A stretch of 64,000 bases of DNA, from NCBI GenBank assembly GCA_020152595.1, contig JAIGNY010004316.1, positions 281,501 through 345,500 of the forward strand. The letters are read 5' to 3'. Shown here piece by piece: positions 41,101-44,100 of this stretch (its first letter is position 1; each line of letters starts with the position of its first letter). The position numbers and the translations under genes were made by a program. The stretch is from Chiridota heheva. Taxonomy: Eukaryota; Echinodermata; Holothuroidea; Apodida; Chiridotidae. The notes below the pieces were generated by a model. That model was not told the DNA's origin and ran no database searches. It saw nothing but the letters and a program-made list of their open reading frames with translations.

Positions 41101-44100
41101 TGACATGACTCATCACTAAAACTATCTTTTTAAATGTATGAACTCCTTACCTTAGTGCCCTCAGGCCGACCCTGTATGCGAGATCTTCGTTGTGGGGTAG
41201 GAGTGCTTGGAATAAATACCGACCAAAGGTGTGAAGAGGAACACTTTCAGGGGGAATATTCAAACCAAGGCCACTCATTGGTCCACCTGAAAATAAAATA
41301 TGAATATTCAAACCAAGGTCACTCATTGGTCACCTGAAAAAAAAATATGAACATACAAACCAAGGACACTCATTAGACCACCTGAAAATAAAATATGAAT
41401 ATTTAAACAAAGACCACTCATTGGTCCACCTGAAAATAAAATATGAATATTCAAACAAAGGCCACTCATTGGTCCACCTGAAAATAAAATATGAATATTC
41501 AAACCAAGGTCACTCAGTGGTCCACCTGAAAATAAAATATGATTTTTAAATCAATGATAATGCAACAGATACACAATACTGAAAGAGACTACCTAGGCAA
41601 GGAGGTCATTTTAGCGATAAAAAATGAAAGTTGATAAGTACAACAGCCAATTATTTATTTCTTGCACACAATGTCTCTACATAAACCTGACATGCTTGTT
41701 TATTTGATGAGGGCTTAACGGCACCACGACAGCGAGGGTCAAATTGTGCCTGATAGGTTAGATCAGACCTGCCAACCTTTAGGATCACCAAACTGTATTC
41801 TGGAACTACAAAAGTTGTATTTTTGATAAAAAAGCTGTACTCTTCAAATAAAATGTACAAAACAAAGGTTTACTGTGGCTGAAAAAAAATTACCACTGTA
41901 CTTTCAGTTTCTCTTATTGTACGATTCTGAATCTGAATCGGTTAAGTCGACAAAATCAATCCTTCAAGAGGACATGAACGCCAACAGAGCGTAAAAAGTA
42001 TGAGTACAAAAAAAAAAAAAATCTTATTCTGGTGCCAAAAAACCGTACAATCGTATTCTCAACACTTTCCCGTATTAAATACGGCAAAATCGTACTAGTT
42101 GACAGGTCTGTTAGATCATTACAGCGGTAGGAAGGAAAGAAAATGGGGAGATTGAGAGAATCACAAGAACTAAATGCCAGAAAGCTGGGAATGAGAGAAT
42201 GAAGGTGCATGGATAAAAACAAAGTAGAAAGGGGAAATGAGGGGGAAGAGGAGGACTAAATATGGTTATAGAAGGAAGCATAATGAAGGAAGGGATAATT
42301 TTATCTGAAGGGTTTTTCTGGAAGAGCTCGGCTATTGAGTTGTGTGGAGTGAGGGAAGCTCTGGAAAGGTTGTACAGGGGGCAAGCAAGGAGAATGTGAT
42401 GGACTGTTAAGGTGCAATGGCAATTGTTGCAGAGGGGTTGGGGGAAGCCAATAAGGGGTGGGAAGCATATTTAATGGAAAAGTTTAGTTTTGTTCAAAAT
42501 ATGTAATTTTCTGAATATACATAAGACATTTATGCTGAAGTTTATACCTAAACCTGCAGTTTCAAGATGCCATCATCAAAAATTTCAAAATGAAATTGTC
42601 CATTGAGGCAAAAATGCTCTTGCAGTGGCAGCAGCAAAAAGAGCATTTTGTTTGTCCACTACAATATACTGCACTAAACAAATTTCTGCACACACAGATG
42701 AGTGACAACACTATGGTGAACACAAATTCTGCTGCAGGCTTTGTAAATCTGATTCCCCATTACCCAGAACGGTTAGCAAACAGAATTTTGTTTATTCCTT
42801 TTGCTAAAATCTTAAAAGATCTGGAGAAATACCATTAATGGATCAAAACTTGCAGCAGGCCACATGAACATCTAAATGTCAATGCATTATTTGCGGATTT
42901 GAGGTTGGTCTACCCCACCTAGTTACCGCGTTGCTATGGTGGGCGTGGCCTATTTCCATATTAAGACAGGTTAATTGCTACATGTCCATAAAGCTTTTAT
43001 ATCAATATTATAATTCTTTCTCTCTTTATAGATAGGCCACGGTCCTTTACGTAAACACATATGTAGAAACAAATGCAACAACATCTGATATCATGCAATA
43101 AACAAAATCTAAATGTTTGTTTGTGTGATGAGGGCTCAACGGCACACCACAACAGCAAGGGTCAAATTGTGCCTGGGAGGTTAAATTATTCCAGAGGTAG
43201 AAAGAAAAGAAAATAGGAGTCTGAGAGAAGTACCGGGACTAAGAGCCAAGAAGATGAGATCGATATGATTGCCATTGAGCACGAGGTTCGGGTTGGGGTG
43301 GAGGTTGTTGAATGGTTGTTGAAAAGTGCATGCAGACTGTCTTGTCTTTGGAGAATTTAACTGTTATTGTTGCACCAGTCCTGATGACATCCCACCACAT
43401 GCCATTCCGCCCTGTCCCACATGTCAACCCATCCTGTTCCACAGGCCAACCCACCCTGTTCCACATGCCAACCCACTCTGTTCCACATGCCAACCCACCC
43501 TGTTCTACATGCCAATCCACCCTGTCTAACATGCCAACACATCCTGACCAACATCCCACCACACCCTGCCCTACATACAATTCCACCCTGTCCCATATGA
43601 CCTCATCCTAATTCCTTCAGCTACTTTATCATTGTGTCATCTTCTACCCCACATTCTGCTTATTGTTTATATTCCTCAAACCCCTAATTTAACATTCTTT
43701 AGAAGCGAGAAAACTTTTATTTGCTTCTTTATTCATGGCAGGACAAACATTTTGATTGCTATTCATGTCAGGAATATCAATATCATAACAAAACTAGAAA
43801 TGAAATTAGTAAGTCATCATCCATATATCTTTTATCTCAGATCAAACATATTGCAGCAAATGCACACTATACCTCACCATTAAGTGTGGAAAATGCTCTT
43901 CACATATACTGTATGATCATTTGTTTAAGCAAAATCATCATACCCACTTTAATTCAAGAGATACCACATATACAAATATTTTCATTGCTATGCAAATAGG
44001 CTAATTATTATGCACACACAATCCCCCAATCATGCTTAACTGAACAGTACCAATGCCCTACCACTGAACCAAATAGCAAGTTATTATCTCAGTTTTTTTA

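Follow-up and report, generated by a model that had tools for sequence, protein, structure and literature searches.

In a ZSWIM4-8-family gene of the holothuroid Chiridota heheva, the boundary between a long intron and a coding exon is occupied by a 48-bp tandem array that offers six acceptors, only the last of which (41286, minus strand) keeps the reading frame. We regard this array as probably a mirage minisatellite in the sense of a tolerated decoy, with splicing occurring mainly at 41286, and the splicing machinery most likely ignores the extra acceptor copies. The ordinary reading, i.e. a mirage minisatellite in a genome that is rich in minisatellites, explains the data, and the six-copy array itself is no chance alignment. 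All positions refer to the window, by which we mean the whole stretch of 64,000 nucleotides that was analysed; loci from elsewhere in the assembly are named by their own labels.

A tandem array over an intron/exon boundary

Six exons of the ZSWIM gene were placed on the minus strand of the window as an in-phase chain. The most 5' one placed lies at 46853..47062 and is followed by the exon upstream of the array (45850..46188), whose donor lies after 45850. The third exon, 136 nt in length (41151..41286), starts in the last unit of the array and was placed by phase and splice scores. The chain continues with the exons at 38528..38685 and 37383..38172, the latter containing the first part of the ZSWIM4-8_C domain, and terminates with the last coding exon (31861..32184), which contains the stop codon near its end. 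The six exons join in consistent phase to 1957 nt without any frameshift, and a stop codon ends the reading frame. The last two exons match Pfam ZSWIM4-8_C (E 3.2e-33 and 1.5e-33), while Pfam returned no match for the other four, the 41286 exon included. The best relative in the PDB is ZSWIM8 (E 3.1e-08), with two aligned stretches, and the 41286 exon falls outside both of them. The reading of this exon presumably resembles vertebrate ZSWIM5/6. The exon chain and its domain matches indicate that the gene is real, and the predicted place of the 41286 exon within it, with an upstream intron of 4563 nt and a downstream intron of 2465 nt, rests on phase, splice scores and the presumed likeness to ZSWIM5/6. 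One further ZSWIM4-8_C gene was found in the assembly, on contig C736, and no others were found.

The array was detected by TRF at 41254-41542 on the minus strand, with a period of 48 bp, 6.0 copies, 90% matches and a score of 480. Alignment of the units divides each of them into 16 nt of intron end (CATATTTTATTTTCAG) and 32 nt of exon start, and every unit junction reads CAG|GTG. The first exonic bases after TTTTCAG are located at 41525, 41477, 41429, 41381, 41333 and 41286 on the minus strand; these coordinates agree exactly with the six acceptors that the first-pass annotation had listed. Beyond unit 1, which carries acceptor 1 (41525), the intron sequence is unique, and beyond unit 6 the exon sequence is unique, hence the array displays the pattern that is expected from the tandem duplication of one boundary. 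Unit 6 is identical to the unit consensus, from which each upstream unit departs at between 1 and 5 of its 48 positions. The array sequence was found a single time when the 1.1-Gb assembly was searched. The anatomical features by which mirage minisatellites are recognised, namely a minisatellite-like array, a unit that extends over an exon-intron boundary and splice signals within the copies, are all present, the boundary itself being assigned here by the phase of the exon within a Pfam-supported gene. The spacing of the acceptors is 48 or 47 nt and differs from that of NAGNAG acceptors, which lie 3 nt apart.

Reading frames and strength of the six acceptors

When joined to the donor at 45850, the acceptors at 41525, 41477, 41429 and 41381 (copies 1 to 4) read 64, 48, 32 and 16 extra residues, respectively, followed by D-Q and a TGA in unit 5. 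One G is missing in this unit, and its own acceptor (41333) reads MEG-D-Q-stop, i.e. it ends after two codons. The same TGA (41323..41325, read from 41325 to 41323) is reached from all five upstream acceptors, and the frame into the remainder of the exon is kept by 41286 only. The initial reading of the sequence had noticed a period that is a multiple of three, open units 1 to 4, and a base lost from unit 5 that sends all upstream acceptors into the TGA, and had regarded the whole as a nonsense trap. This anatomy was borne out in each respect, with the lost base now specified as G and every upstream acceptor breaking the frame in unit 5. The TGA is situated 172 nt before the 3' end of the exon and upstream of a later junction, such that the use of an alternative acceptor places a premature stop ahead of a later junction, which is the arrangement known from poison exons and nonsense-mediated decay. 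According to the 50-nt rule, a stop this far ahead of a junction leads to decay, hence decay of such transcripts would be expected.

The strength of the splice sites was estimated with an acceptor matrix trained on 156 inferred acceptors and a donor matrix trained on 160 inferred donors of the same genome. Copy 1 scored 10.34, copies 2, 3, 4 and 6 each scored 12.51, and copy 5 scored 13.43, which places all six acceptors at the 57th to 88.5th percentile of the 156 inferred acceptors (82nd for acceptor 6) and compares with 5.1 to 10.7 for the other acceptors of the gene; the donor at 41151 reaches the 90.6th percentile of the 160 inferred donors, all these percentiles being rough, because the training sites were picked by the same procedure. 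The selection of 41286 by its local strength was therefore rejected, because copies 2 to 4 score the same and copy 5 even higher, which leaves the use of copy 6 unexplained at this level. Likewise, an RNA structure that hides the upstream acceptors was rejected, since the fold of the 410-nt region gave z = -0.67 in comparison to 100 shuffles.

The substitutions among the units were compared with the consensus to see what has been conserved. Units 1 to 4 carry 3 synonymous and 9 non-synonymous changes, whereas 33 and 105 changes, respectively, are possible (plus 6 giving stops); unit 5 was excluded from this count because it is frameshifted. The upstream copies are thus shown to be without coding constraint. 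The 16-nt acceptor cores changed at 1 of 96 positions, compared to 13 of 192 in the exonic part (p = 0.04), and counted by columns the difference is 1 of 16 in the core versus 10 of 32 in the remainder (p = 0.07), in a comparison that involves small numbers and was chosen after looking at the data. This preservation speaks against copies that have no role whatsoever. The other arrays of the window served as control. In these, A/T columns outside runs changed at 180 of 3742 positions versus 205 of 2560 for G/C columns, and A/T runs varied at 32 of 500 positions versus 0 of 66 in the ZSWIM array, with some of the array rows overlapping and being counted twice.

Relation to known mirage minisatellites

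The first paper on mirage minisatellites is said to be that of Canestro et al. from 2002. The intron-exon boundaries of amphioxus globins are duplicated in a minisatellite-like manner, and regular splicing has been reported or suggested for them (PMC3087553). Similarly, repeats over splice sites occur in lancelet PGBD5, and the same source cites the Adh and troponin C mirages as cases without aberrant mRNAs (PMC3902484). The ZSWIM array shares with these lancelet mirages (Adh3, troponin C, the globins BflGb6/BflGb9 and PGBD5) a unit that spans an intron-exon boundary and many copies that carry splice signals. Its composition is that of BflGb6, in which the unit also consists of the 3' end of an intron and the 5' part of an exon and of which two haplotypes carry 6 and 3 units, respectively (PMC3087553). 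However, BflGb6 is a different gene and its units measure 150-160 bp instead of 48 bp, a length that is included in the range of 10-72 bp given for the Adh3 mirage units. Unlike the lancelet mirages, the ZSWIM array contains one unit with a frame-breaking deletion. Lancelet genomes are also smaller than the present one of 1.1 Gb and have a higher G+C content.

Internal tandem repeats at exon-intron boundaries were also found in human duplicated genes, where they have on average 30 bp x 4 and can alter splicing (PMC2812944). They resemble the ZSWIM array in having minisatellite units, some of them at exon edges, but they differ among paralogs of recent origin and are supported by transcripts, whereas the ZSWIM array sequence was found once. 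The gain of introns by AGGT tandem duplication has the AG|GT-carrying duplication in common with the ZSWIM array; in contrast to that process, the copies sit within an existing intron and no new intron is seen. A narrow literature search recognised no similar array in molluscs from titles and the starts of abstracts, and passages of a mussel genome paper (PMC9210306) did not bear on such arrays.

Arrays at other exon edges of the genome

The occurrence of similar arrays was surveyed at 320 edges of 160 among at least 188 matched exons (67 of at least 68 myosin-head and 93 of at least 120 kinesin matches); 28 matches were left out, and at least 134 kinase matches lie outside the survey. The edges were inferred by eye from the match ends and AG/GT, several exons come from the same gene and some of the stretches overlap. 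Of the 160 exons, 50 have an array at a distance of at most 300 nt, and donors are clearly spanned in three cases. The largest is a 30 bp x 45 array over the donor of a myosin-head exon (L017, 1699-3050), in which the motif GGTGAGT is intact in 16 of the 45 units. The other two are an 18 bp x 4 array (L043, 1693-1766) and a 58 bp x 5 array on the minus strand (L072), while a 45 bp x 1.9 array of approximately two copies (L033) represents a probable fourth donor array. No array clearly spans an acceptor of the 160 surveyed exons; in L036, L121 and L123, which were counted as non-spanning, an array ends at most 20 nt from the acceptor and the exon is not clearly entered. Acceptor mirages in this genome hence rest on the ZSWIM case.

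If arrays ignored exon edges, 27.0 of the 320 edges would be spanned, corresponding to 8.4% of flank points, but only three or four were found, which is about seven to nine times below the expectation from the adjoining flanks. The resulting rate amounts to 0.9 to 1.3% of edges (95% limits 0.2 to 3.2% over both counts), with the expectation being a little too high and the rate a little too low, since some of the 320 match ends are not true splice sites. This means that edge arrays are strongly depleted, as purifying selection would produce, yet they are recurrent and not rare. In all four donor arrays the extra copies are situated on the intron side, and the rule that the copy adjoining the unique exon is the real one and that the extra copies lie intron-side holds for the ZSWIM array and the four donor arrays; it follows from the gene models and adds no independent support. 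In the pooled donor mirages, 62 of 379 motif positions changed versus 180 of 1423 elsewhere, and none of the four single tests for erosion of the splice motif was below 0.05 (p = 0.09 for L017), so that erosion is not clearly evident.

The idea that intronic arrays are generally derived from splice sites was rejected, because among 127 arrays the comparison of sense with antisense gave 66 versus 48 for donors (p = 0.17) and 50 versus 59 for acceptors (p = 0.98). As a separate observation, a 41-bp x 36 array (L045, 1747-3245) begins few bases past the donor of a kinesin exon and contains no exon sequence.

The genome is rich in minisatellites. Within the window, TRF arrays with a period of at least 10, two-copy arrays included, cover 9,567 of the 64,000 bases (14.9%) in 31 segments. 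When these segments were circularly shifted, on average 1.64 of the 11 ZSWIM edges were covered, and at least one edge was covered with P = 0.74; one is observed. The coincidence of an array with an edge of this gene therefore needs no special cause.

Choice among the acceptors

The array probably originated from a single ancestral acceptor, CATATTTTATTTTCAG|GTGGACC, that was tandemly duplicated as a 48-bp unit and grew to six copies. The working copy would then be 41286, beside the unique exon, and the other five, all on its intron side, would represent decoys that are free to drift. The exon is probably defined from its own donor, in which case the acceptor closest to this donor across the exon would be favoured, and 41286 would mostly be used. 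The small size of the exon (136 nt), its long flanking introns and its strong donor argue for this preference. Exon definition is described to favour the sites that are closest across the exon; in human, where 3' splice sites are separated by 20 nt or more, the upstream one is generally preferred, and long introns only reduce this preference (PMC9225289). Hence, it is sufficiently likely that copies 1 to 5 are misused to some extent for this to be worth measuring. Transcripts that arise from the occasional use of an upstream copy would carry a nonsense codon and be degraded, and selection would have tolerated this small cost. The first-pass annotation had offered as one of two possibilities that the array is a constraint that the branch point must solve. 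This view is nearer the mark, because all six acceptors score well.

Its other possibility was a set of poison acceptors that tunes expression. It might be possible that the upstream acceptors are used in part, either regulated or constantly, that the TGA in unit 5 then leads to decay, and that the unit number sets the ZSWIM output. We consider this unlikely, despite several points that speak for it: the five upstream acceptors are good and have a common TGA, the best-scoring acceptor of all is the poison acceptor 5 (13.43 versus 12.51 for acceptor 6), the acceptor cores are uneroded, and the upstream 3' splice site is preferred in human (PMC9225289). However, the lancelet mirages are reported to splice normally (PMC3087553, PMC3902484), unrelated donors of the genome carry similar arrays, and the lost base is confined to one unit and might be of recent origin or result from faulty assembly. 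Expression tuning is possible but unsupported, because published mirage cases suggest normal splicing, arrays exist at donors elsewhere, no coding constraint is seen in the upstream copies, and placement alone already predicts an array over an edge.

An error of the assembly would change the picture in two ways. Either the unit number is wrong, or unit 5 lacks its G merely through a mistake in the consensus, in which case the upstream acceptors would add in-frame 16-residue repeats. The loss of one base in a GG run within a repeat is indeed a classic site of errors, but substitutions distinguish the units, so that no single unit has been repeated by mistake. Together with the position of the array inside a contig of 500,729 bases, its single occurrence, and the absence of frameshifts from the six placed coding exons, this makes an error improbable.

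It is very improbable that the array supports recursive splicing, in which an upstream junction is respliced to 41286 via the AG|GT of a unit, or that it acts as a nursery of new introns. The CAG|GTG at every junction would be compatible with such processes, and AG|GT duplication has been proposed as a route of intron gain (PMC3087553, PMC4974935). Nevertheless, the GT of the units is weak as a donor: four of the six units score 4.97 (13.8th percentile), unit 4 scores 4.74 and unit 5 scores 6.23 (26.9th percentile), and an intron of 47-48 nt would be very short.

Finally, it is hardly credible that a protein variant gains 16-residue repeats via the upstream acceptors, and in-frame repeat coding was rejected as the main reading on the codon changes of units 1 to 4: the period is a multiple of three with units 1 to 4 open, and such periods occur in four of five edge arrays (ZSWIM and the probable L033 included) versus 51 of 170 arrays (P = 0.03, post hoc), but the frame is broken in unit 5 from every upstream acceptor, the substitutions fit no coding constraint, and L043, L033 and L072 hit in-frame stops past the donor when read by eye.

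Splice-site minisatellites as a possible genome feature

The mirage reading may have a wider form, which we put forward tentatively. Minisatellites at splice sites might be a standing feature of this genome, present at approximately 1% of the edges, with the intron-side copies being discounted whatever their number, be it 45 donor units in one myosin gene or six acceptors in the ZSWIM gene. The length of an array might then act as a naturally varying dial of splicing errors, and in the ZSWIM gene all these errors would be nonsense. Without designed minigenes, it is difficult to examine how the spliceosome chooses among adjacent sites that are almost identical. Naturally occurring series, with a donor region present in two to 45 copies or with six acceptors, offer a ready-made experiment, possibly including allelic variation. 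Moreover, the depletion of edge arrays shows the cost that minisatellite-rich genomes bear at their exon edges. For the ZSWIM gene alone the array is a curiosity; what most deserves to be followed is the recurrence of such arrays at about 1% of edges, with up to 45 copies.

Other features of the window

Two further arrays of the window contain splice-like motifs. At 16355-19301 on the plus strand, a 43-bp unit is repeated about 69 times, and its consensus includes AAGGTAAGA, a good donor motif, which may be due to chance or to an unplaced exon whose donor has become a mirage. The unit of a 35-bp array at 52343-52895 holds CTATAGGTGAGG, which resembles an acceptor and a donor together. Near both ends of the window, at 1764-2484 and 62060-62698, there are tandem units of 301 bp that, by eye, belong to one family and have opposite orientations. 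The region 11270-15340 is G+C-rich (0.49-0.58) with overlapping open frames on the plus strand, and is presumably a degraded retroelement. An open frame at 6922-7981 contains YADDTQL and resembles part of a non-LTR reverse transcriptase.
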